Assembly: GCF_000003815.2 (NCBI RefSeq)
Contig: NC_049981.1
Location: 5,524,312-5,588,311, forward strand
DNA: 64,000 nt
Source: Branchiostoma floridae
Taxonomy: Eukaryota; Chordata; Leptocardii; Amphioxiformes; Branchiostomatidae
Direction: 5' to 3'
Shown: piece by piece, positions 36,433-64,000 of the stretch
Position numbering within the stretch: position 1 is the first letter of the stretch
Layout of the letters: each line of letters opens with the position of its first letter
Translations under genes and position numbers: made by a program
Notes under the pieces: model-generated
Seen by the model: the letters and a program-made list of their open reading frames with translations, nothing else
Told to the model about the DNA's origin: nothing
Database searches by the model: none

Positions 36433-36885
36433 TCAGGAAAGTGCGATGTAGCCGTCTCCATATGAGACATTGTCTTCAAAGACGTCGTCGTTCGAAGGAC
36501 TCCATGCCTTTTTGACGTAGCTGGGGAGGGGTGCGAGATACTGAGGATGGCCCGGACGTTCAGCAGACAATTCATCACTGACAGTTCGGTCTGACGTTTG
36601 ACTGTCCCTACGGCCAGGCGAGAGATATCGATCTGAGTACAAGTCTCGGCCACCAAAGTCTTTCTGAAAGACCACATCGGTGGATGATCTTTCAGACGTG
36701 TTCAAGGAGGTACGCCTGGACGTAAGATACTGATCTGGGTACGAGTCTTGTCGTCCGAAATCCCCTGCTGATGATGTATAATTACTGATTGATCTGTTGT
36801 CAGTGTTAATGTAATTTCGTAGTGAGGTTGGCTCCCTGACATAGCGGTCCTGGTACAATTGAAGGAGTTTCTTTCTCCTACGCTC
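36433..36885 (-). CDS. R36: terminal exon, cytosolic tail with three degenerate repeats
   Basis: It starts ERRRKKLLQLYQDRYVRE and ends DNVSYGDGYIALS before TGA. 150 residues, hydrophilic. Three roughly 33-residue repeats begin LYQDRYV, SYPDQYL and LYSDRYL; two are preceded by DFG(R/G)(Q/R)D. Basic-Ser sites such as SRRTS and GRRDS suggest phosphorylation. No known domain. In polycystin-1 the chain would continue into the channel region at this point. Confidence 0.8.
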   Translation of the reverse strand, partial: ERRRKKLLQLYQDRYVREPTSLRNYINTDNRSISNYTSSAGDFGRQDSYPDQYLTSRRTSLNTSERSSTDVVFQKDFGGRDLYSDRYLSPGRRDSQTSDRTVSDELSAERPGHPQYLAPLPSYVKKAWSPSNDDVFEDNVSYGDGYIALS

Positions 36886-39800
36886 CTGTTGACGACAAGA
36901 CAAAACATAATGACATTATTCACACAAGTACCCAAGCTGGCAGTATGATGATTCTAATTATATTGCAAATCTAGAATTTCGAATTTGTCTAGAATTCGTA
37001 TGTCTGAATCTAAATTTATATAAATGATCTTGAAGCTCAATGATAAAGTGCAGTGGTCACAAAGGACGCTGTACAGTTTTCGAAAACCTTTATGATAAGT
37101 AACATTACCAGAAATGAAAACACGCTTTTGCAATACCACTGATGATGCTCAGATACATAGATGGAAAGATAGAGAGATCGATAGATAGATAGAAATATAG
37201 AAATAGATAATTTTAGATATTGATATACTACAAACTCTTCATTTCTCTAAAAACTCGTGTACCTGTTTGCCGGTTAATGGTTACAGGGTAGTTGACAAGG
37301 TAGGAGGAAATATGGACAGAAACGATCAGATGTGCAAAACTCACCCATACTGTCTCTTCCATGACATCCATCCGACTCTGAATTATGGAGATGGTCTCAG
37401 GAGTAACCTTAGTTTTCTGTAATAACAACAAGATCAAGAATAATATGTAAATTACATTGCAAATTTTTGCCCGTGGGCTAATTGCAGGTAACATGAGAGA
37501 TTCAAACAGTGTAGAAACAATATCACAAGTGTCTACTCTAGTCTAAATTCAGTAAAAGCTTACTCTAGATCCTGTGTTATTGGGTTCGACTCCATTTTCG
37601 AACAGTGGAAGACGACAGAGCCCACCTTTTCTATTATGTGTGGGTTCTGTGATGTTAGAAGGAGAATTTTTTTTTTTGTCAGTGAATGTAAAGAAGTTTT
37701 GGTTGAATTTGGTGGCCTCTTCAAACAGCTCTTTTCTTTCGTGATCGTAGAAAGAACAGTTTGACATAAAATGTAATGATTGAACCAAATCCATGATGTC
37801 ATCAACATATCAATCATAATATGATAAAGAGTCGTCGCTTTATATAACAAGGAAAGCAGCACGTAGGCCAGCATACACAGAGCATCTCAAATTTTCAGCA
37901 CCTACATATCAAATATAATAATCATAATCAAAGCAAGGCAGCAACGAAGAATTTTTGTCAATACACAAACGTCCATTATTTCAAATCACATGAACATTTG
38001 ATACTGTGCTGTGCTGTAACCCTTATAATGCTGTTGATGATAATCGGTTGTTCTGTATTTGCATGTAGTGTAGTGGTTGTTTCCAAACGTTGTACCATGT
38101 ACAATTACCTAGCAATAAAGTTCGGTCATTCATTGTTCGCATGGTCCGGAAAAGCAATACATCCTTCATCAAAGTAACAGTACTGGAATACGTATACCTT
38201 AAAATTTTATGAATATACATAGAATGATATATAACTTCTTATAACTTTTTCAGCACCATACATTTGCGTGAGCAATTTTCTACATTCACGTTCACATTAA
38301 CATTTACACGAATCGTCTTACTTTGGTAACTAACTTGAAGAAGATGATGACCAGAATGATCTTGACCGGTTGAAGAAGGATGAAGTCAGTCAGGAAGGAG
38401 ATGAGGAAGGCCAAGAGCCAGGCTTGAGACTTGGCCCTGCCGTAATCATTGCCGTACAGGACAGTAAAGGCACCGGATACTATAACTATGGCAGCAACCA
38501 GGAACCAGGCTGTAGGGAAAATATGTTAGATATGTTATTACATGTAACTGCATGAGCCTGGTCTGGGACCTGCTGTAATCATTACCGTACAGGACAGTAA
38601 AGGCACCGGATACTATAACTATGGCAGCAACCAGGAACCAGGCTGTAGGGAAATATGTTAGATATGTTACATATTACTACATGAGACAGGTCTGAGACTT
38701 GGCCCTGCCGTAATCATTACCGTACAGGACAGTAAAGGCACCGGATACTGTAACTATGGCAGCAACCAGGAACCAGGCTGTAGGGAAAATATGTTAGATA
38801 TGTTACATGTAACTACATGAGCCAGGTCTGAGACTTGGCCCTGCCGTAATCATTACCGTACAGGACAGTAAAGGCACCGGATACTATAACTATGGCAGCA
38901 ACCAGGAACCAGGCTGTAGGGAAATATGTTAGATATGTTACATATTACTACATGAGACAGGTCTGGGACCTTCCGAAATCATTACCGTACAGGACAGTAA
39001 TGGCACCGGATATTATAACTATGGCAGCAACCAGGAACCAGGCTGTAGGGAAAATATGTTAGATATGTTACACCAAGGAGGTTAAACCTCCTTGGTTACA
39101 TGTAGCTACATGAGCCAGGTCTGGGACCTGCCGTAATCATTACCGTACAGGACAGTAATGGCACCGGATATTATAACTATGGCAGCAACCAGGAACCAGG
39201 CTGTAGGGAAAATAGGTTAGATATGTTACATGTAACTACATGAGCCAGGTCTGAGACTTGGCCCTGCCGTAATCATTACCATACAGGACAGTAAAGGCAC
39301 CGGATACTATAACTATGGCAGCAACCAGGAACCACGCTGTAGGGAAAATAGGTTAGATATGTTACATGTAACTACATGAGCCAGGCCTGAGACTTGGCCC
39401 TGCCGTAATCATTACCGTACAGGACAGTAAAGGCACCGGATATTATAACTATAGCAGCAACCAGGAACCACGCTGTAGGGACAACAGATAAGTTACTAGT
39501 ACTTTAAACTTAATCCTCATGGGAACCCATATCATTGCCAATTACCAACTGTATTTAGCTAGATTGCCAAATGGAAATCATTCATAAGACAGATTTGATG
39601 CGGAGTTATCTATTATATCTGTAGAGTGTGATACACAATTACTTAAGATCAGCAACTTATCATTTACCAACTTGAAGATAAACAGTTGTATTCAAGACCA
39701 CCTCACCTACTATACGGCACCACCATGGAAACGGCCTGTAGGGCTTCTGACTCACGGTAACCTTCGACCCCTCTTTCTTAACAACATATCTGGTATCCAT

Positions 39801-42800
39801 TTTCTTCAGAGCTGAAACAAACGAAAGACAAAATTAACAGATTAAAATTTTGTTTCTTTTTATTGCAACTCGAATGTGAACGTGTATCAGAGTGACATTT
39901 CAGATATTTCCTATCTACCCAAAACAAAACAACCGACTCTAGAAGTGCGCTATCGTCTCTAGATTATGTCGACCCCAAAACATGTCCTAGTACAGATAGA
40001 GATGCTGATAATTCACTACCAACACATAAAGGTCTTAAAACAGACCGAAAAGGGCTTAAACAGTCTTGAAACAGTCTTACCTATTGTTATTGGGTGGTTA
40101 AATGGGCTGAATGAAGATTCTAGTATTGTTTACTTCTGGTCTGATTATGCAAGAAATTGAATGGAAAGAGATATGTTTACTTTGCAGCAGACCACAATAA
40201 GATAGTCAGCCCCTTTCAGCCTGACAGTACAACACCTCACGAATGAGGTGTCCAAAACTCAGGTGAGTGCTCTCTTGTGTATCAATAATGAATAAATTAC
40301 ACTGATGTGTGAAGTCCCTTGTTATCTAGGTGTGAACTTGGTTTTCAGCCCTTGGCATCTGTATAGAAACAATGCACACCAGGACAAGACTGTTAAAGCC
40401 CCTTTAACCACCCAATAACAATAGGTAAGACTGTTTAAGCCCTTTTCGGTCCGTTTTAAGACCTTTCTGTGTTGGTACTGTAAAACTCGTCCGCAGGCCA
40501 ACATTGTTTCGAATTGTTATCACGTCGACTTCAATTATATCCTCTTACATACAATTCAATTCCGTTGCACTAATTCCAAATGCGAGATCGAGACCAAATA
40601 ACAAATCCATGACAACAATGTAAATCATATACCGTTATCTATCATAATGATATTTCTTTGTCTATATATAGGATAAATTAGCCTTGTAGTTGTTAACTAG
40701 TTGTTGTTATACATTTCACCACGTAAAAATACCCATTACATCTATATCACTCACCTCCTTCTTTCTTTAACTTATCGATGTAGGCGGACGGGTCGGCCGT
40801 GTACTCCGCGTCAAACTCTGACTCTGCGTCCTCAGCCTTCGGCAGGTAACGAGGTAGAACCAGCTCTGGACCGTGCTGACCCTTACCGGGGATGCCGTAA
40901 TTTGCCCTCTCTTTTGGTTTGGACGCCTCTTTTGTCGCCGATGATTTCTGCCTTGTCCCAGCGTACCGAAAAAGCACCACGATGAAAACGTTGATGGGAA
41001 GGGCTATCAGTGAGCTCTCAAGGCCGATTATGAACTGAAAATCAAATGCATGTTCAATAAATACTTGGAATGAGTCAATACCAATATTTGCCAAAAACAA
41101 AGGAAAAATTGCCGAAATTCAACGTCAATAACAATATTTGCACAAAATAACAAACTGAAGAAGAAATTGCCGAAATTCAAAGTAAATAACAACGTTTACC
41201 GACAAACAAAAAAACAAAGAAGAAATTGCCGAAATTCACATTTACACTCGCAGCAATTCGCTTACCTGTTGGGTAATTGATTTATGCTATTGTATTCAAT
41301 TCTATTCTCATGTCGAAATGCTGTTTTCATCTTTTACAAAGATGAAGTAATTTACCGTGTAGACTGGTTTATTTTCCAAGGAACAAAGACCAATATGGAT
41401 TGAAAGCTTGTTTTCAGCCTACGGTCTGAATTGCAAATGCAAGAGTGCACTTAACATTGATACACATTAAAAATTGCTCTACAACATTTAACATTATTAT
41501 CCAACATTACATATTTCTTATCAACTCTAAATATTTCTTGCAATCTATGGTCTATTTTGTCTTTGAATGCTAATCTATCATTGTCTATATTGTAATTGTC
41601 TATGTGAAAAATGCAACGAATGTTAAGGTGCGCTGCCACCGCACTTGTGTCAAGCTTGCATCACTACGGGGTTCGTTCACTGCGTCACTGTATTGTTATT
41701 TTCTCTGATTTTTTTATAATTCTGATATTGCGTAGGACGTAAAAGGACGACTTAGAAGACGACAAAATACACAAAAAGAAAGAAAATTTGTTCTTTATCT
41801 CTGAAATTCGTTGAGTATCTTTCGAACCCCACAGTGACGCAAGCTTGACACGGGAGCGCACCTTTAAACAGAACACTTACGGTAGTCAAACTGAAGGGTA
41901 CTTCCAACTCAATGCCTCCTATCGTGACCTTTGAGAGGAAGTTTCTGTCTCCCTGGTAGAACATGATGTTGACTAACATGAAGGACATGAGGAGGGACAG
42001 ACAACAGGATATCCTCTGCACACGGGTGAAGTGGTTGGAGGGAAATCTCACCACAGAGACCCACAAGTGATGAGACAGGAACCCCCTTCCCTTTGTGGTC
42101 TTCGACAGTTGTCTGTGTGCTTTCTTCTGTCGCTGTTAGATATAAGAAGAAAAGGGAATAAAAGATTTTAAGTTCTAACATCCGCATTCAGACAAGCTGC
42201 TAGGGACCCAAATCTCTACCAGTCTTTCTGGCTCCAAAGCTGCCAAGACCATCAAATTCAAGACCAAAACACGTCAAAACAGAAGATATAATACTAACTA
42301 TAGGCCTACTACTATCAAGAAAAGAAGCTACATGAAATAGGCAAACAAATAGCATTCATTTAAATGGAATCCCAATAGCTACCCTTGTAATAGATATTAT
42401 CAAAATCACGGCAACTAGGTAAAGATACTTGTCCACACAAACAAACAGCGCATGAAACAAGGCGTCGTTCAAGGGGGTAATAAGCTTTTTTTGTCTGATC
42501 TGTACCTACTCAAATGTCCTACTATCAACAACACAAATATACACACATAGAATGCATTTCAAAATATTAAACTGTCGGTTACTTTCCGTTCGTCGGCCAG
42601 ATCCAAACTCCTCCCGATGAACACAGCCACGATGTACAAGGCCATCACGACGCACACGGTCACCAGGGCTATCAGACTTCTGTCCAGGTCAAAGGTGAAG
42701 GAACTGCCCAAGTCCAGCGGGTTTGGCGCAACAAAACCGGCAAAGGCTGTCAGGTGGTCACAGATACAGTGGAGCTGCTCATCGGTCGTCTGGGGCCCGA

Positions 42801-45800
42801 CCTTTGGGAATAAAGAAAACGAGACCTAAGTGAAAATGGCTTGAAATATCGGTTTAGAATTACAAAGCTCAGACTGGAAACATCTATCTACAGGTACGAA
42901 ATTAATGCAAATACTATATTATAAATAGGTTATCACACTATATCATTCCTTATTATCATAACTAATTTACCCTCTATTCATCTAATAATGCAAATTCAGT
43001 TTGTTAAAATCAACTTTGTTCTGTTAATCATTATTTCTATTCATCTTCTGCAAACGAAACCTAGGCAATGTTTTTGACATTTAAACTTGACCTCTGATCT
43101 CCCACGTTTCACTTTAAGTTAATTTTGTTAACTTTCTGTTTACTTATTGTAAGAAATTGGTTGCTTATGTGATGCTTTTATTGTTATGAATTGCAGGACT
43201 GAAGGAGTAATAATAATACTACACTTAGTATCACTAATGGAGATCTCAATGAAACAAACAATTATGTTAAGAAAAATGACTAAACGATCTAACTTATCTA
43301 CAAACATGAAATTTTATGTAATGCACTTACCTCACACCCATTGTCCGTCCACAGTCGAGTCGTTTCGTTGAAGAAGATGCATTTAGAAGGAGTGATGCTG
43401 ATGGTGTAGGGGACACTGGAGTCTGTTATCTGCCCATTCTCGTCAACGGTTGGAACTCTTTGGATTCCTATGTAAAATCATGAACATTTAGTGTCGTTCA
43501 ACATTAACATAACATTGGTACCACCAAGAGCTCCAGCTTTACATAGTCCTTTTGGTCCATCATAAAGTTCATCGGGACCAAAAAATGAACAAATGCAGGT
43601 TTGGTGACGGTACGCGTCTGAAATTCATGTAACTTAATGTAAAGGTTTCGTTAGAGGGATCAAAGAAGCCATCTACATCAGAGCTTTACAACCATCCCTG
43701 AACAGAGGCGGTGGACGCCATAGTCTTACTGCAACCTATGATCCACTGCTTACTGAGTCACGTTCTATTTGCATAACGTGACGTCACGACAGCAGTGGAT
43801 TGTTCATTCCTTGATAAAGACTGGTGGTGTTCAGTCGAAAATTTGGGTGAGTCCTAATCTCCATGCAAATCCTACAATGGCATAAGATAGTACCAAACTG
43901 GCCACGAGTTGTACTCAGCCAATTTGCCATATGTAGCGAAACACAATCCTATGCCGGCTTCACTCCTCTGCCAGCTTTTGATACTATCTTATGCTACCGT
44001 AGGATCTGCTTAGAGAGTCCAGTTCTTGTGTTGGATATTACAGTTAAACCAGTTTAAACATGTAAAGGTGTTTGTTTAGCTTTGATATGAACAGGTGTAT
44101 TACTCACCTATTGCCCACATTTCCTGTTCATTGCTGATGTTCAAGGCTGTCTGGTTTAGGAACCATGCAAACGGCTGCATGGAAGACACAGTTCTTCCGC
44201 CAGATGTGTACCCAGTCGCTGTCAGCGTGACGTTGTGGCTGTAGTCACCAGGTGAGACCACGGCACCACGCTTCAGGTAAACCCTTAACGTGACGTTGGT
44301 GTCGTCGCCAGTGACGTTGACGCGAACGTAGAAGGCCACACCTAGTTCTGTCGTGTTGAAGTTATGTAGCTGTACGTAGAAATGAACAAGAGCAGAAATC
44401 TCAAAAGCGTTATGAAACATCAAATTTTAAGAATTGATTTGAGGACAATTTCAGAAAACATAATTTATGAACATGATCATCTGATACATTTTTTGGCATT
44501 AAGACTGATTGTTCAATAGACTTATATTGACCTTTGATATTAATGGCACCTTTAAAGGCGATGCACTGCGTGTACTCATGCATGGTACTTGTGCGAATAC
44601 GAATGTGAATATGATGATAACTTTGTTGTGTAACTATTTGTAAAAGGTACAAAGCATTGCATATACTGATACATAACTACATTTCTATAAGGCTAATCTA
44701 CTTAATACAAGGGTGCATAGCATGGGATGAAAATCATCATCATCAAACACTGGGCTCTGCATCTATAGTCTGGATGTCCTATAGTTGCATTCATTTTCAT
44801 GGGATGAAAATGAAAGGAATAGTAAGCATCGTAGTATGATGAAAGGAATAGTAAGGAAATCATTGGGGGGATTTCTAGCATCCAGACAGTCTTTGATATA
44901 TTTTCCTATGTATACGTATACCATACAGGCTGTCGCATGTTACATTTGTATTCAAATTTACTATCTATGAAAATGTACATGAGAGGAAACCACAATTCAT
45001 TTAACCAACGACTGTGCCTAAAAGGCCTTATGTCCAAAAGAAGTGCTGTAAGGTTTCAGAAGAAGTTGAGTCATTTCAAAAGTCAATGTCATCTGTTATG
45101 CAAGATTATTGATCAATTTGAGTAGTATGATAAAATCACACGTAACTTACCGATATCTGTTCACTGTTAGATGACGTGGCTGTACCGTTCACCATCCGTG
45201 GTCTGTTTACTACTGGGTTTATTGATTCGATACGTTCGTCTTTCTCAAGATTGCTGACAAGGACTTTCCGTCCTTCCCCCAGTACGGAAAGTCCCAGAAC
45301 AGCCGTCCTAACGTCCCTGGCGTTGTTGGCGTACTCAAAAGGGTTTTGTGGTGTAAAATAAGTCTGGAGCAAACAAATCAACAAAAAGCAGTCAGAAAAG
45401 TCACGTGTCCCCCTACCCTCATGCTAATCCCTCTGACCCCATCTACCTGTCCGTCATCTACCCAGTAGGTCATTGTGGCTTTGATTCCGTTTCACTGAGT
45501 CACGGTCATATCGTGACGGAGAGCTCACTACCCATCCTCCTATGCAGGGACATCCAACGGCGAAACCGCCTGTCTGGATGCACCCTGCTTTCTCAACCGT
45601 CATCCTTAGTTCCTGTGGGCGTCGCAACAAACCAGCTATCAGCCAATCAGAGAATAGGCCTTTCGGTTTTCAAAAGGGATCTCGTATATATAAGGAAAGC
45701 TCATTAATATGCATAAGCAGGGCGGTCAGGAACTAAGGGACCTGGTTGAGAAAGCAGGGTACATCCAGGCAGGCTGTTTTGCTGTTGGATGTCACTACCC

Positions 45801-48800
45801 TAACGGTGTATGTACTCATCTGTGAAATAGACGCAAAGGTTAGTTCTCTTCGGAGCTTGCAAAGAAGAGAACTATATCAATATTGAAATAACTTACTTAA
45901 TTCCTCTGTATTAGCAAACGATTTATGTTTATTTATTTGTTTGTTTATTTATTCTAGCAGAATCTAGATTTTTATATCTAGGGTCCAAAATCTGGATTTG
46001 CTTTTACAAGTATATTCTCTTGTCTCTGAAACAACAATGTCATCTTTAATGGGAATTGGTAAGCTATCACAACATTCGGCCCACCATATTGTCATGTTTA
46101 CTACTTATTTATTATTTATGGGGACTAGGGTTAGTCTTGTCAGTTACGGTAACTCATTTGCAAGTGAGCCCTTATTGGTGTTAAGAATACTCCAAATTAC
46201 TCTGTTTAAAGGTAAGGTAATGCCTCCAAATTTTTGACGGCTGACAGCCCATCTTGTTAGACCTAGTCTCGATCTCGCGAGAGAGGACGAGACTAGGTCT
46301 GGCTTTTATTGCGCTCTCTCGCAATATCGAGACTAGGTCACTCTCCGTGAACAAGATGAACTGTCAGGATGTACCTTACCTTTAAAAACAATCTTTGCTT
46401 GAAGAAAATTCGGAGTAACTGTATTCATACGCTACTGATGAAACTCTTCAATTAATTGTTTAAGCTTTTACTAGGACGTGTATGATATTTCAAACCTGAG
46501 ATCCAACAGTGCCATTGACACAGAGCTTCGTGGTGGTGTTTTCCGGTATCTGAAAATACGCTCTTGTGTCTTCCTGTGTCTGTATCACCCGCGCCCCAAG
46601 CCCGCCACAGCTGGACCTCGCCAGGGACATCAGGAACTCCTTAGCCTGAACCAGAGTCGGCTTCTCGTCTCGGTTTTTCCTCGAGATCATCGTCAAGGCC
46701 AAGTTGTCGATTGTTTCAAACGCAGTTGTGGTTGCCTGTTGGTTCTAGTAGTGCCAGAGGAAATCACAAAGTTTATGATATGACATCGAAGTGTGTGTTA
46801 ACGTCGTCGGAAAATCAAAAGTAATTGAGAATAATTGATATTTTGTCAGGTAATATCACCTTTTCAAAGTCTGTGGTTCGGTTCTGGACCTGTGCCTCCT
46901 CCCTTTGCTTTTCTGCGCTTTCACTGGAGGCTTCCAAAACGTTAACAGCACCTAGAAAACAGGAGCTCATTACGTCTAGTGTTTTGCTAAATGTAATACT
47001 ATACACAGAAAGATATCACTGTGTAATATGGCTGAACCTCACGGGGGTATAAGTGTCTCTCACTGCACTTGCGTCAAGTTTGCGACTCTGCGGGGTTCGT
47101 TCACTGCGTCACTGTTATGTAATTTTCTCCCTTTTTTTATAATTTAGATATATCGTAACACGTAAAAGGTAACTTAGAAGACAAAATACCACAAAAAGTA
47201 AGAAAATTAGTTCTTTATCTCTGATAAGCAGTGACGCAAGCGTGATGCAAGTGTAGTGAAAGGGCACCTCTAGGGAACAGCCCTTGACATTTGAACGTAG
47301 GTAGGACAAAACATACACTGCCGACAAAAATCTTTTTTCTATTCTTTTCTTCTTCGTCGTTCCTGTTACTTCAATAAAAAATGGATGTGGTATTTTTTGT
47401 ATGTCTGCTTGTAGGTGCGAGTCTTTCGGTCTGTGTGTCCTGAAGTTTGTTGTCCTCTTAATTAAGAACCTCTGGAATGGTATTTCATATGTCGTTAGGA
47501 GTTAAGAAGACGAAGGTCGAGGTCAATTTTGTTCATCTGGTGTGTAACCTTGTTCGTGTTCGCATGTGTGTATGTTTATATGTTTATGTGTGTATGGTGT
47601 ATTTATATGCGATTTTGTGCGTTAACTGTTTTATAAAAGCCATCTATCCAACACGTGTCTTTGACTCTTAATCTTCAGTGTCTCCTTACCTGTGACAAGA
47701 TGAGCCGCTATTCTCTCCAGCTCCTCTGTTCCAACTTCTGATGATTTATCCGTCAACACCTCTCCCAGACTTTTTAACGTGTCACCGCCCTTACCTGTCA
47801 TGGCGAAAATACGGTAGTTATGTTCAAGACCTTACAGTACGCAGGTATTTGCAAATGATTCCAACCCTAAGTGGTTAAATTAAGTGTTAATGACCCACCC
47901 CGAGGTGTATATGGTGTTTTGGTGAGGTGGTTATAGCAAAGGACCAGGCGTTATGACACCATGTTCACAGAGGAGCAAGCGGGTTATTAACGTTATTATC
48001 ATATAGCCTACCCAAATTTGCAAACTCTTGTATGACGCATAGATCGTTTGGCACTATACGTTGATGCAACACTATCCAAGGAAAGCACCTCAAGTTCCAG
48101 TATCTTCTATAAACCAGATGTATTGCTGCCTTGCCTTCGGCGACGGATTTCGCTGAGAAAGACATGCAAAAATAATCCTTACCTGAGACTCATCCGACAG
48201 TTCTTCCGGCTTGTTGGTCACGTGTTCCAGCGTGCCTGACACCTGTTTCACCTGCTGCACGTCCAGCACCTGCACCTGCTCCAGGATCTCTACCATCCGA
48301 TCACGTGCCTGCGTAGACGACAAAGTACAATAGTTGCTATCACAGGTGCCACCATAACGTAATGTAGAGCACAACAGGCTGGTACCCTAGTTGTGCCAGG
48401 GTCACTTTTCCAAACCGGCACCCACTTGGGAATTTTGGCGGGAAGAAAAGTATCATAAAAAGTATCATTCTAAGACAAAAAAAAAACCACACGCTAAAAC
48501 ACGGTAAAATAGTTATGAGCACAATTGGTGTATATTTCTTGATACACACTTTTTACCTAACATGTTAAAATTGCGTGTATCAATCCACCAACATGGCGGC
48601 AAATGTTCTGTGTACATGCATGCTGTGACGCTACGTGAAAATACAAAATGTACGTTTCCGTTACGTTTCAATTAAAAATCCTATATTTTTGGTACGAAGG
48701 TGATTAGGATTGCAATTTGCATGATTAATGAATGAATGGATCATCATTTGTTACGTATAAGATTTGCAACGTAAAATTCGTTGACGACAAGCAAACCTCG

Positions 48801-51482
48801 GTTCTTGTTGCATTCTCTACGTCGGTTCCGTTGGCGACGTTCAGCACAGACGCCGCGCTTGCGATCGATGACGTCGTCTGCTGTACGTCATCGACGTCCA
48901 CGTCATCCAGAACGGTGTCTACGAACTCGTCGACTTCTTCAGGAGGTCGTACCTGGAAATAGTTAAATGTTTGGAGGGAAATTTCTTTATGAACAAAAGA
49001 AAGAAATCCTTATTTCTCTACTAATTAGTTAACGTGATGAATCAACGTGCCTTGCATAATCACAAAGTATAGATGACGACAGGAAACAAATACATGTGCA
49101 TGAAAGTGGACATTGTTAATAAAAACACCCACGATATCATTAAAAGCATCGTAATAATCGTCATTGTCTAGGCAAATATACAGAAACTTCTGGTGTATAT
49201 CACTAAACCATTAATGCTTATATAGAAGGTTCTATTTCTGCGTTCAATTTTTAGGGACTTCTGTACATAACATGGAAGATTTGATTTCTTACATTAGTTG
49301 CGAAAGTTGCGACACTGAAGGCACCGAGATCATCTGTTACACGGATGACGATCTCCAGCTCATAGTTCTCGTCTGGGTCTCCTGTGGGCAGTCTAATGGG
49401 AGGGGTGCTGGGGGCCTGGTTCATGAACAACCGAGAATACAAGTTATATCAATTCATCTGCCTACTCACAGCCCAATCACACAAGCATGGATATTCTTAC
49501 GTGCAATATAAGCATCTGAGAATTATCAAAAAGTTGCTCTATAAAAATACATCAGCCTGAAGCTTTGTTATGATTTGCAAACCCTTATATTTAATTACAA
49601 ATTTATGTTATGTAACTGTAAATGTATGATCTTTACGCTGATTTGTATCATCTATTTACTTCAGTTATTCTGACTTGTTATGACTTTTAAGGGCTACCTC
49701 AAAAATCAGATACTCAGTAAGGGACGACACCACAATAAAGGTTCACAAATAAAGTAAAAGAAATATGGATGAAATATGATATAAAAATCTAATTGATAAA
49801 ATCCACAAAGCTCTCAGACTAAGGGCATCAGGGATTTTCTTCCAATACGCTGAACAATCTGAGTAATAGATAAATAATACTAATATCTCTTTAGTCAAAC
49901 AGTTAATGAAAAAAAGACAAATCACTGACCGGTCCACTGTACAAGAGATGCTGGTTGATAATAGCGGTGGAATTCACAGAGGCAACTTTGACATCAGCGG
50001 CCGTGTACTCGAAGTCATAGCGCAGAGGTAGGTCCGGATCGCTAAAACCTAGAAGACATTCAGTGTAATATTTCCATGACATCCTTCGACAAAGTATGAG
50101 CATATCATGTCTGGTTTTTACACAACTTTGTTGTGTTAACACCTTCTGTCTGGAGTCTTGTATCAGCCAAACGGTGATTTCCATCATTCATTCGGACTCC
50201 ATGAAGAGTTTTGATCTATCAGTCACTAATGGAAACCCGATACCAACTTAAGCAAATCAACATTTTGGCGAACATTGATCAATCATGGTGGTATCATAAT
50301 AAGCTTCCGATATTTAATTTACTTCTAGCTACTGTTATTATTCTCAAAAGTCATCCATATTGACGTTAAACTAATGCAATTATAAGTTAAATGACTTTCA
50401 GAGAATAGAAAATCACACCAGTGAGCCACTCATGGAGTATTTAAATCAGTACAGTAGGCAGTTATCAACCATTGTTTGCTTTGTCAATGGCAAGCAAGCT
50501 GAACCTGAACACCAACTTTTACTCGAAACTCTCACCTTGACACTGCAACTCAAAGAACCCTTCTGATGTATTTGAAGCGTGGACTGCGCAGGCTCCAACT
50601 GTCGGTGGTTCGTTCAGCGTGAAGGAGTACTCAGCTGACCCAAACTCAGTTGTATTACTGTCTGTCACTATGGCGGTTACAGTGTACGTCCCCTGCTGCT
50701 TGAAAAGGAAATACATAGTAATGTAACGCTAGTTCACCTTTATTCGCAGGGTAACCCATATCCGTTGTATTTGATAAAAGTGCATCTAGAGCGGTGGAGT
50801 CGCGATCGATGGATGCTGGTTTGAAATTGAGATGTTTTCAAAATATCATACCATGAAACTACATGCCGTTGACTTGAAACTTGCACTTAAGAAAGCTAAG
50901 CTGATTGACCGAAAATTCGCAAATAAAATGTCAAGAAAAATGTTTTAGTTCAGGAACCACAGGTTTATATTTAGCAGATTGTTACTTTCTGAAACAACTA
51001 AAATCATCTATTCCGCACGCACCGTATTGTAGACATCGGCCCTGAACGAAATGTGGTCTTGAGTTCTGTCATTTAGAATGTTTGTCCTCCAGTCTTCGTC
51101 TGTCCAAGTCGTAGCCACTCCCTGTGTCTGCACCAATGTCCAGTTGTACCTGTAGATGTTGGGATCTGCTCGACAGTTGCTGCAGAGCACGGACAGCCTC
51201 ATCTTTTCTCCGGAGTTGATTTTGGGACCGCAGGTTCCGTAGGTTGAGTCACAGCTAGAATTTTCAAACAGAAACGATAATGCTGGTAATGACACTTGTC
51301 GATTCATCTGTATTGGTAGAAGCCATTCTTGGTTGCAGTTTGACTGTACTCTTCAACACAAAATTGACATTTGGCTGTAAGTTTCAAGAGAAATTTGGAC
51401 TCTAACTGTATAACTGTAATTACAAACAACCCTTGACTGGCTCCAGTTTTTGTCAAGGAATGAGCTTGAAATATGAACTTTC

Positions 51483-51571
<89 letters not shown>

Positions 51572-54500
51572 GCGTAGTATTCTCCATGGAATTTTATGTT
51601 TGTATAATCATTCAGTTTGGTGACGGAGCCAACTGAATATTGAAGGTCTTCAGTAGGAATAGCAGAAAATCATTCTATTATAAGTCTAAAATTTCATTAC
51701 TCCTTTTCAGACCATAGTTTTAGTATAATAGTAATGGGTTAAAGCACCAACAAATTTCGGACTTACATGATTGATGTCAGTGGAATGGTCGAACGGACCA
51801 CCTCTATGATTTGACTTGCAGAGACATTGTCCCTGTTTGGTGCAGACACCTCCACAGCAAAGGTAAGCTCGGAGTGGAGCGTCTCAAGGCCGAGGTTTAC
51901 AGTCAGTAGACCATCAGTACTTCCGCTCAGCGCAGGACAGACTCCATCTGTATCAATACATCCGAGAATAGTTTCATCAGGTTGGTGCGTCACTGTATAA
52001 AGAGAATCTCTTTACACAACCATTGCTTTATTCACACCGACGTTTCGGTAACCGTCTGTCACCTTCTTCAGAGTTCACTGTACTGCATCTGAACTGTGAG
52101 CAGCGACACCTGTCCTGCAGTACAATGTGAACCAGTCAGAATAGCCCTGAAGAAGGTGACAGACGGTCACCAAAACGTCGGTGTGAATAAAGCAACGGTT
52201 GTGTGAAAAGAGTCTCTTTATTCTGTACAATAGACACGTTTTTGTTACAACAGACTGCTAGGGGAAAATATTTCCTTCTTCACTATATAAATTAGCTTCC
52301 ATCTCCTTTAAGAAAAAATTCATTGTTAGGGTACAAAACCCGCTGTTCAACCAGCCTTTCTCGGTGTCACTGACGAAAAATAGTGGATGCAATCTGAATT
52401 CGAAACGTCTGACCGTTTCAAAAATCATATCCAGTTACATGAGTAACTGCTAACCTTTATCGACGAATGTGGTAGCTGTTTTTTGTGCTTATCCCACCTA
52501 TCTACCCCTTAGAATAACTATTTGGCGGTTGGGACACCACAGAAGTTCTAGTTGTCATTTTTTTCTCCACTCTTCTTGTTTTTTTAGTTTTTTTTTAAAT
52601 GTTTTACTTATTGGCATGTCTTTCCATTCTCTAATATTACCCTTCGATATTTTTCGTTGCCTACCTATCTTTCTTCCTCCTTGGACGGTTCCTTGTAAGA
52701 TAGTTTTGACTCAGTATGATTCTTTGGTCAATTGGTTCTTAGAGTCATTGGAAGTTGCTTTCATGCATTAAAATATCTGAAATAATTTTATTGCCACATA
52801 CACTATGTATGAACAATTATATTATTTAGGCTATTACAGAAGCAAAACAGTTGATCGTAACTTTACTGACTCAACTAACCACATCCAAACTGGCGTCGCT
52901 GAAATCTAAAGCATTTTATTTACATTTTCACACTTTTAAGCGTTGGCAGGCCCCCTTTCCACTAGACGGCGATCGCGCTGCGCTCTCACTGCGACCTGCA
53001 ACGAATGTGTGTATCCTTCGTTTTCAAGCTGGATGTATTACACAGAATGTAAAAGTGTGACTGAAGAGGCCAAAAAACACACAAAATGTGAAAAGATTCG
53101 TTCGTTTTTCTATACAAGTCGTTGAGCGATCTGTCGCAGAGAGACCGCCGCGAGAAAGCCGTCGTAGTGGAAAGGGGGTATAAAGATGTTGTATGCTCGT
53201 AAGCAACATCACTCACCAACAGAGGTACAAGACCATCGGTAGTCCAGATCCTTGCTGCTTAATATAACGCCATCTGGATCAGACGAAAGCGTGGCCGCGT
53301 CCAACGTGACCTTTCCCGTACTCACCTGTCTTTTGAACCCACCGAGAATACCAGCAACGAGAGAGGAGGCTGTGATGGTAACTGATGCGCTGTTACTTGT
53401 GCTTGATACTACAACCCCAGTGTTGATCTCTCTGACAGTCACTCTTAGTCTGAGCACGTATGTACCGTACTCAAGTGTCCGGGAAGGCACTAGAAGGTCC
53501 GCTTTTGTTAAAACAACGCCTGCAAGGTCTTGCCATTGTGTTTTGGTAGGCGGTAAAGCCTCCCACTTGTACATAACATCTCGTGGTTCCGTACAGTTTG
53601 CACCGACGGCGAATCGACTATTCAGTCTGAACGCTCTACTGCGAGTTATGGACATTCCTCCGCCTAAGATGGTCACCTCAGGTGTGCAGTAGGTGCATCC
53701 GTATCCTCCAGGTGTGTTCAGACAGGTAGAGCCGTAAGGACAAGTCGCTGTGTTCTCTTGACACTCATCGAAATCTGAGGTGCAAAAGAAATGTTTTGTT
53801 AATCAATGCTTAGTGTAATTAAAACTTAAGAATTTATATAAACTTTGGACACGCGCGTAGGAAACGGCTCTCATAGGTAATATAATGTCTCTTATCCGAA
53901 GACTATGGTGCGCTATGATATGATATGATATGCGAATGACTAGAATGTAGCCTTTTTATCTCAAGCTTCAGAAATGTAGTTATTCCTACGCATGCGCACT
54001 ACTGCGACTCCTGTCATGAATAAATTCATGAAGTCCTTGCACACATCACGTATCATATTTCTGATGTGAAACTTTTGGTGTTCTAAAGACTTTTCTAATG
54101 TAAAACGCTGCTAGAAAGAAGTGTGGGAAGTGGATATGAAGAGAAAAAGAAGAAGAAGAAGAAGAATAAGAAGAAGACGGAGAAGAAGGCAAATAAACAA
54201 CACCATACAGTACCTGTTACTGTTACCGTTGCTCCCGCGAAAGGAAATGATGTATTCCCGACACTATCATTGATGTAACTCTGTAAATGTCCCTCCACTG
54301 TCGCAGGTAGCAGAGGTGTTTCCTGTTCGATGAGTGTCAGTGACTGGAAGGCAACCAAGCTGCCTCTCTCAAACCGTATAAACCCTGGATTTCCAAATCT
54401 TCTGGTTTGCATGATGGAATCCACCATGTAGTTGAACTGTAGGTTTAAAAAGATCATAAATCTTCGATGTACATATATAAGAAATATATAGGGTGTCTAT

Positions 54501-57500
54501 GTGGCGCAACATCTAGAGCGTTGCAAACAGAATCAGTAGGGCCTGAGTTCGATACTCGCCATGCCCCGGCCCACATGACGATGCAGTGACGCCCACCGAG
54601 CCTCATGGCTAATCTGTCTAAAGGTGCCAAAAAACACCTACGGATTTGGTGCTGCCAGTGTGTCAACATCTGTACACTTGCCACTAAGACTGGTGATTTT
54701 TTTTAATGAGAAAAATACTTGTCAACTTTAGTACTATACTATTGAACATGAGATAAAGACGCTCTTTGTTAAACAACTATTGCTTTATACATTATCACAC
54801 CGAAGTTTTGGTGACCGTCTGTCAACTTCCTCAGGGCAATATTGACTGGTTCACATTGAACTTTAGCACTTGGTGTCGCATTTCACTGTTCAGATGCGGT
54901 CACAAAATATTAAGTATTTACATATGCACATACATATTTATGCGAATTAATTTGCAATGAGGTCACTGTCCCAAACGTAAAAGAGTGAAGTATTAGATAT
55001 GGACCTATTGATGTGAAATTATCATAAACACTATATAAAACTGACTAAACAAGCAAATATTTATCCCCGCCTTACATTTATCAATAATAATTTATCCGTG
55101 TGTGAAAGAACGTGCAAACAATGGACGTCAAACGTGGTGGAAGACGAAACATATTTCATGTCAAACTGCTCTTCCTACGATCACGAAAAAAAGCGCTGTT
55201 GAGGAGCCTACCAAATTTCACCCAAACTTACTCACATTCACTGACAAGAAGAAAGCAACTCTCCTTCTAATATCACAAAACCCAAACATAATAGAAAATG
55301 TGGGATCTTTCGTCTTCCACTGTCTTCGAAAAAGGAGTCGAACCCAATAACCCAGGATCTAGAGTTAGTTTTACTAGCTTTGGACTGGAGTAGACACTTA
55401 TATTGTGATATTGTATTAACACTGTTTGAATCTCTTATGTTACCTGCGATTAGCCCACGGGCAAGAATTTGCAGTAAACTTTAATAACAAAAAAGCTTAA
55501 AAGCCAGTTAAACACCATACTTACGTGATTTAAGTGATATCTCCTGCTCTGTTCATACTGTGCTCCACTAGGTGCATGTTTATCTGGTTCATAGTCGAAA
55601 CTAGCATTGTATAAAAGGCGGACGTAGAACCTGTTCAAAGCTGGAATGATTTGCAAGAACAAGAAGTAAGTCCATGGCCAAGCGATTTACAATTATAGGT
55701 CAAACATTTTGCATAACCATGCTTTAATATTTGTTCGTTTTAACTAACGCCAGGGCAAATTAATTTTATTGTAGTTGTTTGAAGTGACACTAGTAAAGGG
55801 TAGCCATGACTGTATTTGTAGAAGTGAGATTAGTTAGCTGGCCTCGAGTGTAGTTCTCAACTTGTTGATATTATTTTACTACACTAAGGTCACTTCTGCA
55901 CTTCTTGAATACAGGAATATAAAGAATCGACGGCTTATATAAATGTTGATACCATGTTTTGTCACCACAATTGTTGTTGCAACGTTTATGGCGTTTATGT
56001 GTTTATTTTCATAATTCAGGCTTGTTTTTTTTGCCCTCTCTTATTCAATGTGGAGGCTGCTGTGGGTGCCATCCCTAAGCTTTATTTACCTTGTCCTAGA
56101 TGCACAGAGTCGATTCCATATTACCGAGAGGGTGTTTCTTGCCTTTTGTTCTAACAATTTGGAAATCTTTGTAACAATCTAACTGTGATAAGTAACTGTT
56201 TAGAACTATTTACAACATCTATGTGACGTTCTAAATGTTTCTATAGTATTCAAACATGTTACAAACATAAGTAACTGTTTAGAACTATTTACAACATCTA
56301 TGTGACGTTCTAAATGTTTCTATAGTATTCAAACATGTTACAAACATTTCTAACATCAAATACATTATTTCTGTTAGTTTTTTAACTGTTCCAACATAGA
56401 TGCATCATTTGTGATCACATGTTCGAACATGGAAACAATATGATGAAACTGGGTCAGTGGGCTGGGAAGAGGGCAATTCACACATCCCTGCCAAGTGCAG
56501 GAAATTATGTCTGTCTGCCACCTTCTCACAAAAGACTCACCAGTTTATACTAAAGAAAATCTAAAAATACAAGAGCCAAACAAAGGACCAAGCTTAGCAG
56601 CTTTGTTTATGGGGTCAATAAAAGTTTTTATGGAGGGAAAAAATGACACAAAATGTTGGAACATGTTGGAACAATAACAAAAACACATAGCTGTTTGAAA
56701 ATTGTTCTAAATAAAGAGATAATGATATCATTACTTTCCCAAATGTTGCAACAAATATAAAAAGGTTCAAACATGTTTAAACTTTCATTTTGAAATGTTT
56801 GAACAATTTCGAACTTTAGTGACTGAAATGTTCTTTTACTCAAAATAGTTCAAACTTATTACAAATATTACTTCAAAACCATCTCGGTGACTTGGAATTG
56901 ACTCTATAAGGAGCAAACATTCTATTTGTTGTGGCCTAAATGCATACGGAGTAAACATATTGGAGTTCAACCTCTACTGAACAATGTTTTTTTCTGTAAT
57001 ACTTTTAACTTATAGTGATATATCGGACAGTGACTAGGCAATACAGTGTCATGTAAATTTGCGGTTACACGTTTGTCGTTTGCCGACAAGACAAAAGTTA
57101 ACTAAGTCCATTGGACTATGGAAAAAACTTTGGGAAAGCTACATAGTTACATACCTGTACAGCTACCCTGGTAACGGATGAGCCACGGAAAACAGTCACA
57201 TCTGAAGCTTCCTATTGTGTTAAAGCAGCGTTCCCGGCGTCCTTTGCAGGGACGTCGACTCTCAGTCAAGCTGCACTCGTCTAGATCTGTTCCCAATATA
57301 GAAATAAATGTCAGATATGATCGTTGTGTGAGACCGCATGGCGCAGCGGCAGCGTGTTTGGCTCGGGACCGAGAGGTCTCGAGTTCGAATCGCGCCGTGT
57401 CACTGTCTTGTGCCCTAGAGAAAGGCACGTATTTATAGGTGAAAATGAGTACCTAGTTTCGGGAGGCCTGTCCCTCGTTAAATTGAGGTTCTGTGTTTGG

Positions 57501-60500
57501 GGAGAGCTACACCTCAAGCACGCACGCTTAATAACCCACCACACGTGCGATGGTGCGGTGTGCGATTGAGCAAACCATTATTTCTGGAGTTCGTTATTCA
57601 CTACAAATCACCCGGATTGAGGCCTGGCGAACCTCTGTCTCGTATCAGCAATACGGCGATTTACATCATTCACCACACACCCAGAGAGGAGATAGGGGTG
57701 GACTAAAATGCCTATTTATACAGAATAACATGGTGTGCTACCCCTACGGCTGATTAATCAGCTATGGGATGATGATGACATCGATGACGATCATATTTGG
57801 TACGCAAAACTTTGAAACATGACGATACAGAGTTATCTCTTCTTTTAAGTGAATATTAGATACTAGATTGGCAATGCATTACATTTTACGTGGGAGGCAC
57901 TCGTATGTTTTAGTACACATAGTTTTAGATGCACTTTTGAGTACTTACCATTGCAACTGAATCCATTTCCAACCCAGCCACTGTTGCATCTGCAGGTTGG
58001 ATTAGGTCTTGCGTCATTACAGGAGGCTTGGGCGTGGCAGGGTGGACACGTGACCGGCGGGCGGGCGCTTGTTGACGTTTGTGCAGCAGGAGGGGTCGTC
58101 ATTACTTCGATATGAAAGTACAGAAAGTTTTACATATATTACATTTTTTGTAAATAATACCTATCTGAAGCAAGTAAAAACAACTCATGATCAATTTCAT
58201 AGACACATGATTTTAATCATTCTACCAATACAGGTGAATGAGCATGAAAATATGATTATAGTTTTCTCTACATTAAACTTTGTACAGTAAAGCATAAGCA
58301 CCACAATAGCAGATACTTTGCTTCACTAAGGATTCTAGTAAAACCGACTCCTAGTGGCAGATGTGCAGATTGCATTGCCGTATCAAATCCAGTTAGTTTG
58401 ATGACCGACCACCCCAAGTAGCTCGATATTGATGAGTGTCCAAGTTGTCTCATCTACTGAGGTGTATGAAGTAAGGAAATATAGATTCTATCGGTCTATA
58501 AAATTTCCCCTCTCTTTGTTCCATAATCTACATTATACTTCAAAAGTCTGTTCATCTTCTATTTTATATAGATTGGGATATAAAAAAGGAATACCTGAAC
58601 ATCCAGTTCCAACAAAGCGACCATCCCCTGTATATCCAGGGTTGCAGGTACAAGTCGCATCAACGGCAGGAGGGGGGTTATCCACACAGGTGGCCTCGGG
58701 AACACACGGGTCAAACAAACAGGCATCCATGTCTACAGATGACAACATACATGCAGAGATTAGGTTAATATGTCCATATGATTAAATGATGCCAATGATA
58801 TGAAATACCTCATTCAAAATGACCTACTTCTTGTAGGTGTCTTGAATATATACGTACATATCGCTACTAACCCACATCCGTGGTTTAAAAAGAATAGGTC
58901 TTCTGGGCATATCAAGTCGACGGTGGTGTTTTCAAATTGCAATACTACATTATGTATTCGAGACCGTTGACTTCATATCCCTAAATACACTATTTATAGA
59001 TAACGGATATAGGTTACCCCTCAGATAAAGGTGAAGTAACAATAGCTTGATAGCAGAGTAAATATTGGGTTTCTGTCATGGCGACCAGCTTTTATGCCAT
59101 ACGTTTGTATACTGGCCACAGCGAGTAAATTTTCTTGATGACATCAGCGCGCTCATTATTTTTCGAATGATTTCAGAAAAATAATTCCTCTTTGGGGATG
59201 GTCAGATAGGCAAGCATGTTGTGTTGTAGCCTGATAATCATACTTGTAGAAGGCACACTATGGAGGTAGCTATCATTATAGTTGCAGAAGTGAAAATTGT
59301 TAGAAACTTGTAAAATTGCCTCCAATATGGAAGCCATGAATGCAGTTGCCAGCTTGGTAAGCGATACCAGTGTACCACACTAGTATCACTTTTACTACAC
59401 TAGTTCAATTCTTTGAAACAAGAACGAATGCCTTGTTAGCTCTGATATCATGTTTGGTCACTTCAAATCTTGTTACGACGTTTATGATGTTCATTTTGAC
59501 AATTTAGCCATCTTTTTTTATCTATTTCATTATCTATGTACTCTGCATAGGATGTCATTCATAAAAATTTACTTGCTGTGGCCTTTAAGTTTACTCACCA
59601 TCACAGTCTGGAACACTGGCACTCCAGGTCCTGTCCGCCTGGCAGATTGCACTGGTACTGCCGACCACCTCGTATCCCCGGTTACATCTGAACACCACTA
59701 CATTTAGGTAGGTGTTACCGGTGTTACCGGTAGGGGTCAGTCTGCCATTCACTGGTGCTGTTAGACTAGGGCACTTCACCGCTGTAACGGGGGGAGGAAA
59801 AAAAGTTCCATTTTATTCTTCTGGCCCAATGTATTGCCTGTTGAAACTTCAACAATAATCAAAACTTTTATAACATAACGGAATCATGGAAGAGGTCATT
59901 AGGCACGTATGAATACAGTTGCTCCAGAATTTCCTTCAAGCAATGACAAGGAGGCAGGGGGAGGGTGCAGATGATCTACGCAAGCCGGACCTAGTTCTCG
60001 TGTTCTCTCGCGAGATCGAGACTAGGTCATTCTCCGTGAGCAAGATGGACTGATAGCCGTCGAAAATTTGGATGTATGTACTTTACCTTGAAACACAGTC
60101 ATTGCTTGAAGAAACTTTGGAGTAAATATAAAGGAGTCAAAATTAGCAAATCACAATTGTTTGATAGCTAATTGAATATTTTCTTACGATTGCAAATTGG
60201 GACATTTTTACTCCAGTTTCCGTCTGCTTGGCAGGTAGCATTGGTGTTACCGACCAGCTCGTATCCCCGGTCACATCTAAACGACACGACATCCTGGTAG
60301 CTGATGGTATCGACAGGACTCAATTTACCGTTCATTGGAGCTGTCAGGTTGGAACACTTCACCACTGAAACGGAGAAGAAAGAAAAGAGGAATATAGGTA
60401 AATTCTTGTACATGCCGGGATGAGGGGGATACAACTTGGCCACGTTTGGGATGATGTTCTCGACGCAAAAGCGCCACCTTCTTCGCCTACATATAGCGGC

Positions 60501-63956: not shown

Positions 63957-64000
63957 CTTGATGTTCTTTCTGTTGTAGGAAATGTTGCTGTGGAGCTGAT

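Follow-up and report, generated by a model that had tools for sequence, protein, structure and literature searches.

A polycystin-1-type gene of Branchiostoma floridae modelled with five transmembrane helices, a new tail and neither PLAT nor channel

A gene on the minus strand of an amphioxus contig combines Sushi, EGF, REJ and GAIN/GPS regions outside the membrane with five helices and a tail, and it does so without PLAT and without a channel. In this architecture we have high confidence. Our favored reading, to which we give a probability of roughly 0.7, is that the gene encodes a self-cleaved five-TM receptor that would signal via a new cytosolic tail, PLAT and TM6-TM11 having been lost. 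That the tail itself signals is close to an even bet, and expression, cleavage, and tethered agonism are points that we likewise infer. Because a small gene family has this layout in common, retained with the TM1-TM5 half alone, it amounts to a natural deletion experiment and a natural test of the non-channel half, one that bears on whether signalling by an exposed stalk and TM1-5 requires a pore.

Exon layout and family membership

The window, which is the whole 64-kb stretch of DNA that was analyzed (C3:5524312-5588311), belongs to an assembly of 513,431,437 bases in 431 contigs that served as the genome searched. The gene runs from beyond position 64000 down to 36433 (Table 1). Its modelled order is a Thr-rich stretch, ten Sushi modules, three EGF exons, EGF_CA, REJ, a GAIN-type region, the GPS, and the membrane part, and the region of interest, the eight exons R29-R36 (43467-36433), is cleanly modelled. 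The core and tail exons as modelled are open throughout, and hydropathy places five helices upstream of the R35-R36 tail, whose 174 residues contain none. The sequence-only reading had named motifs for TM1-TM5, and all of them (HLTAF at the GPS, FTRVQRISCCL, ESSLIALPINV, YGNDYGRAKSQAWL, and QPVK) were located on the minus strand. The direct phase 0 join of R30 onto R31 that it described agrees with the modelled splice sites, and the 72-bp exon, the hydrophilic terminal exon with its stop, and the AATAAA 187 bp on were likewise where it had put them.

Table 1. Modelled exons and neighboring features in the window (positions of the 64-kb window), with the relatives in the same genome (contig and position)
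Feature	Position	Strand	Basis
Thr-rich stretch with Sushi/CCP module one; gene begins 5' of the window	63600..63999	-	ORF, splice donor, CCP match
Nine more Sushi/CCP exons	59599..63275	-	tblastn with one module retrieves all ten CCP
Sushi/CCP exons 1-5 of nine	63275-63099, 62988-62812, 62672-62496, 62376-62200, ~62067-61891	-	exon chain except ~62067-61891
Sushi/CCP exons 6-9 of nine	61759-61583, 61097-60921, 60364-60188, 59781-59599	-	exon chain
Three EGF-like exons (57155..58732)	58732-58595, 58104-57949, 57286-57155	-	Pfam EGF_3, EGF_CA; splice sites
EGF_CA and REJ domain exons, some internal junctions provisional	49293..53774	-	Pfam REJ 2.9e-56; exon chain
GAIN-region exons (43331..48308), the last being R29	48308-48183, 46744-46496, 45363-45151, 44369-44108, 43467-43331	-	modelled exons
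R30: GPS second half with HL|T site, stalk TAFAGFVAPNP, TM1; phase 0 donor	42801-42583	-	Pfam GPS 2.9e-8
R31: short linker, then HLW...FTRVQRISCCL, TM2	42132-41881	-	PDB polycystin-1 match; splice sites
R32: TM3 (ESSLIALPINV) and an acidic loop that topology places in the cytosol	41034-40755	-	exon chain; PDB match
R33: loop end ahead of TM4	39811-39707	-	exon chain; relatives
Tandem array, 136-bp unit, 7.8 copies: acceptor and start of TM4 exon	38415..39481	-	TRF
R34: TM4 and TM5 (YGNDYGRAKSQAWL, QPVK); sole full-length copy of the exon in the window	38509-38322	-	exon chain; PDB match
R35: 72-bp exon, KTKVTPETISIIQSRMDVMEETVW	37416-37345	-	splice sites; four relatives
R36: last exon, hydrophilic tail of 150 residues (Ser-, Arg-, and Tyr-rich); TGA stop	36885-36433	-	ORF; four relatives
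AATAAA, 187 bp past stop	36246-36241	-	sequence
L033, close relative	C3:5.51 Mb		
L034, close relative	C3:5.44 Mb		
L035 and L036, close relatives	both on C192		
L037, close relative	C3:7.60 Mb		
L038, close relative	C7:20.58 Mb		
L039, distant relative	C4:8.65 Mb		
L040, distant relative	C18:5.28 Mb		

Pfam searches were run on hand-assembled modelled exons, an input that comprised six of the ten Sushi modules and the GAIN region less a few small exons. The six CCP modules submitted gave six Sushi stretches, the hand-joined REJ exons matched REJ at E = 2.9e-56, and the last 809 modelled residues contained a GPS ahead of TM1 (E = 2.9e-8, above the cut-off) and one sub-threshold match, to CitMHS (0.028). 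The Pfam GAIN model gave no match on the modelled protein, and the GAIN region likely holds additional small exons, some of its exon borders being provisional like those of REJ. In place of a 7-TM secretin-like bundle (no 7tm Pfam match at E up to 1), there are five polycystin-like hydrophobic helices. A phmmer search of the PDB returned polycystin-1 as the only match, with three distinct sequences (E = 3.5e-20 to 4.5e-20) covering TM2-3 and TM4-5. The five tails submitted contain no Pfam domain, the best result being one sub-threshold match at E = 0.18.

The REJ domain is what defines the PKD1 family in PMC1934368. By its predicted sequence the protein is a member of this family, that of the kidney-disease protein polycystin-1, having REJ, a GPS, and TM2-TM5 homology, and it has neither PLAT nor the TM6-TM11 channel half with its TOP domain. 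PLAT, when present, occupies the first intracellular loop, and in the family it is common without being universal. The HL|T cleavage-site sequence is present at the GPS, and cleavage there is predicted. "Receptor", the label that the sequence-only reading gave to the five-TM protein, is plausible.

Absence of PLAT and the channel

That the protein is free of PLAT and channel had been proposed from the sequence, and the Pfam run bears this out. GPS, REJ, Sushi, and EGF were found, and hmmscan of the modelled protein at E up to 1 returned no PLAT, PKD_channel, or Polycystin_dom. Because the genome-wide Pfam listing is weak as a test for PLAT (matches were listed upstream of at least 11 of 70 TM loci), local HMMs with controls were used, the PLAT model built from L001, L002, L003, and L005 and the channel model from L009-L012, and both were run on six-frame ORFs. 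Nothing significant was found in the 64-kb window (best sequence E above 4), in the relatives L033-L040, or in the extensions L045-L047. The PLAT model detected its domain in all four full-length loci (L041-L044), and the channel model succeeded in four of five controls (L041, L042, and L044, plus L043 via its extension L054), the one it missed being L055, a 7-kb stretch where the genome search lists Polycystin_dom. The intron between R30 and R31 of L033 gave two PLAT matches (sequence E 4.4 and 5.8) that might have marked a remnant, and on inspection they were attributed to chance. A remnant of the pre-TM6 helix in R35/R36 was also rejected after 12 pairwise comparisons with four full-length controls (shuffle P 0.14 to 0.91).

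Genome-wide, a query of TM core plus tail gave at least 127 matches, which were grouped by eye into 70 TM loci with one row per locus. Among the matches listed, PKD_channel (PF08016) or Polycystin_dom (PF20519) lies within 25 kb downstream of 60 of the 61 other TM loci and of none of the nine loci in the group formed by the window gene, its six close relatives, and its two distant ones (Fisher P = 1.5e-10, also among the matches listed). Inspection by eye found neither model at group loci among these matches, and PF08016 alone accounts for at least 49 of the 70. Candidates scored were the best 150 of 400 for PF08016, 150 of 236 for PF20519, 94 of 357 for TM core plus tail, and 150 of 248 for a further genome search. 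The counts entered comprise 150 of 158 PF08016 matches, 83 of 84 PLAT matches, and only part of the 150 PF20519 rows, those remote from any TM locus being omitted. Since the lists are lower bounds, single absences are weak evidence, yet the contrast of nine of nine with one of 61 is not. A tenth locus without a listed channel match, C16:18889433, is the sole TM-core locus outside the group with neither channel nor Polycystin_dom downstream among the matches listed. The genome as a whole is rich in polycystin-type genes, with at least 158 PF08016 and at least 150 PF20519 matches.

The spacing of R30 and R31 is 450 bp in the window gene, about 414-732 bp in the six close relatives, and 456 bp in L039. 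In the full-length control L042, 1763 bp separate the R30 equivalent from the TM2 stretch, PLAT strands can be read within them, and the end of PLAT lies in one open frame with HLW. In the window gene the HLW exon begins only ~20 residues ahead of HLW, so the loss, in this comparison with a single control, seems to have taken whole exons together with the front of the next.

Were the PLAT and channel exons hidden in gaps, or located elsewhere and reached via long introns or trans-splicing, their absence would be an artefact of the gene model or the assembly. The R30 donor of the window gene is indeed weak (gtaacc, score -0.4), and some N is present in L039 (100) and in the extension L046 (254). 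The window, L033-L038, and L040 are free of N, however, and nine loci on C3, C4, C7, C18, and C192 have no channel match among those listed, four relatives have the two tail exons as well, and the ectodomain of a tandem neighbor comes next, all of which makes such an artefact very improbable. This neighbor occupies 25356-725 (minus) of the window with its Sushi, EGF, REJ, GAIN-region, and R29 exons and the start of its GPS, and its TM exons seem to be those of L033, just left of the window. With the N-terminal half of the neighbor inside it, the window shows two tandem copies, and the HMM search gave no channel match separating R36 from the second. The sequence-only reading had accepted that transcripts splicing past R35 into distant channel exons would overturn it. 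Such splicing is unlikely because the next recognized downstream exons are the Sushi, EGF, and REJ of the tandem neighbor, and no channel match was listed or locally found in the window.

As for the R30 donor itself, it is also unusual in L033-L036 and L038 (gtttga in four, gtttgc in one). A weak or unusual donor at this position might permit intron retention, which would give a one-TM form.

Relatives, selection and precedents

All six close relatives (L033-L038) repeat R30-R34 in order and sequence, with R32 of L036 only partial (residues 1-45 of 93), and by sequence comparison this recurrence is more than chance. In these six, identity to the window gene is 92-97% for R30, 94-100% for R34, and 53-68% for R31-R33 (R33 alone 56-68%). 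Four of the six (L033, L034, L037, and L038) also have the tail. Their R35 is 72 bp and 58-63% identical to that of the window gene, and their terminal exon begins ERRRRYLL or similar, is 30-33% identical over the matched part, matches the start of R36 at E 6e-7 to 1.7e-5, and ends in a stop, with 332-533 bp to the next AATAAA or ATTAAA. Neither R35 nor R36 is recognizable in L035 and L036, which may use a different tail. Of the distant relatives, L039 shows a counterpart of R30 and a candidate hydrophilic tail, and L040 has no R30 equivalent within its 10 kb; the R30-R31 join is claimed for the other relatives and not for L040. As a genome-wide query, the window tail retrieved itself as the only match among the matches listed, and the L038 tail retrieved L033, L034, L037, and L038 and not the window tail. 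The link to the window tail therefore rests on the small-scale comparison of loci.

In a 13-row tree of 176 columns, which carries a long-branch warning, a branch with support 87/88 separates the nine rows lacking PLAT and channel from the rest. The simplest reading is that PLAT and channel were lost once, in a common ancestor of the nine loci.

Selection was measured as NG86 omega. For the TM core, the three closest pairs gave 0.18, 0.14, and 0.23, and three wider pairs fell at 0.27-0.31. For the tail, omega is 0.35 (L033/L034), 0.33 (L037/L038), and 0.48 (L033/L037), and between window and relative it is 0.17 and 0.22, with silent sites saturated in these two. Core and tail are under purifying selection, and the range of 0.33-0.48 indicates a tail that is selected, yet faster evolving. 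The sequence-only reading had described a stable derivative, and the relatives with the same core, the four with the same two tail exons, and omega well below 1 support that description.

R30 and R34 are much more alike among the relatives than R31-R33 or the tail are, a likeness that suggests gene conversion or strong constraint.

Ahead of R34 lies the tandem array, which the sequence-only reading had missed. It holds seven partial upstream copies of the TM4 exon, six of which reach a stop shortly after TM4. Counted by one pattern with the full copy included, there are 8 copies in the window, 4 in L033, 6 each in L034 and L035, 3 in L036, 2 in L037, and 1 in L038. The stops in six of seven upstream copies, and the confinement of the L036 R32 match to residues 1-45 of 93, are what might be expected of a decaying pseudogene family. 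Such decay is extremely improbable, however, given that no stop interrupts the core and tail exons modelled for the window gene, that omega is well below 1 in core and tail, and that a full-length TM4/5 exon is present in the window gene and in all six close relatives. The upstream copies were also considered as used alternative exons, and this was rejected: across 22 upstream copies (first 57 exon bases, 19 columns per codon position), variable columns numbered 10, 4, and 7 at positions 1, 2, and 3, with no third-position excess. The final copies group with a few upstream ones in a tree with weak support, and the array may thus be older than the gene duplications.

With the 11-TM members, human PC1 and SpREJ3-6, the window gene has in common REJ, GPS, TM1-TM5 sequence, and module order. 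It differs from them in having no PLAT, TM6-TM11, channel, or TOP domain, and in having a new tail and Sushi repeats in the ectodomain. The assertion of the sequence-only reading that known members keep PLAT and continue to 11 TMs is wrong. PMC1934368 gives TM counts for ten REJ proteins of the sea urchin, with 11 in just four of them (SpREJ3-6) and 0 (SpREJ10), 1 (SpREJ1, 8, and 9), 2 (SpREJ2), or 6 (SpREJ7) in the others, and it gives PLAT for five of the ten, which we infer to be SpREJ3-7. The channel-less SpREJ1, 2, 7, 8, 9, and 10 resemble the window gene in PKD1-family membership, in REJ (partial or split in SpREJ7-9), and in having fewer helices, whereas none of the ten is given five TMs in those counts (PMC1934368) and the window gene is cut just past TM5. 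Channel-less relatives are on record in fish as well, namely partial pkd1l3 sequences and stickleback Pkd1b, PKD1-like forms described without the polycystin-cation-channel domain (PMC5318412). The authors of that paper regard the zebrafish pkd1l3 sequence as perhaps a remnant rather than a bona-fide pkd gene (PMC5318412), whereas several genes here have common tail exons under selection. Channel loss thus has precedent in sea urchin and fish. As far as a search of the open-access literature can tell, the new element is a five-TM, PLAT-less form with common tail exons across a gene family, and no account of the window gene family itself was recognized in those papers.

Signalling through the tail and its alternatives

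In the reading that we favor, the ectodomain would bind a ligand or surface, the GPS would be cleaved at HL|T, and displacement of the N-terminal part would expose the stalk (TAFAGFV...), which could then serve as a tethered agonist of the five-helix bundle. The signal would exit, without a pore, through a tail that recruits cytosolic partners. An odd number of TM helices with the N-terminus out puts the C-terminal tail in the cytosol, and a tail inside the cell would be the likeliest output. In mammalian PC1 a G-protein-binding region lies in the tail past TM11, a part absent here, and this counts against the signalling reading. In adhesion GPCRs, a GPS with its stalk adjoins the membrane bundle (PMC9672506). 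The same arrangement is found here, with the difference that the five helices of the window gene are homologous to polycystin TM1-5 and not to a 7-TM bundle. For polycystin-1, both GPS cleavage with a tethered stalk and the stalk as an agonist are described in PMC9672506 and PMC11458180, and whether it signals as a receptor independently of channel gating is an old controversy (PMC9672506).

If the helices just anchored the ectodomain, the product would be a non-signalling adhesion or shield protein, and its tail a trafficking or cytoskeletal anchor. A large and modular ectodomain, the loss of channel and PLAT, and the rapid change of the tail would all suit such a role. We nevertheless consider it unlikely, since R30 (omega 0.05-0.24 over six pairs) and R34 (0-0.32) are among the most conserved parts, beyond the need of a mere anchor, with the proviso that gene conversion may inflate the apparent constraint on these two exons because they are near-identical among relatives.

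A further alternative keeps the channel but moves it to another gene, with the five-TM protein binding and gating a separate PKD2-type or full-length polycystin subunit in trans, like PC1 with PC2. The match of TM2-TM5 to PDB polycystin-1 chains would fit this, as would the many potential partner channel genes in the genome (the at least 158 PF08016 matches mentioned above). PC1 meets PC2 through TM6-11. The C-terminal coiled coil is a second place of contact between them (PMC9672506). Both TM6-TM11 and the coiled coil are absent here, and a channel role in trans is accordingly quite unlikely.

Within the receptor reading, it is a tentative and on balance doubtful idea that the lost channel was replaced by a phosphotyrosine-docking tail, with a cleavage-exposed stalk, a five-helix bundle, and a cytosolic tail that would recruit SH2 adaptors. 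The motif YxN resembles a Grb2-type SH2 site, and it takes in six of nine tyrosines in the L033 tail and five of eight in that of L034, a level reached in 0 of 5000 shuffles. Enrichment across the family was rejected, with shuffle P = 0.04 for L038, 0.09 for L040, 0.27 for L037, and 0.40 for the window gene, and with no YxN in the L035 and L039 tails (the L035, L039, and L040 tails being ORFs chosen by eye). L033 and L034 lie on C3, as does the window gene, and the one YIN among the 12 tyrosines of the window tail is aligned with the first YVN of both.
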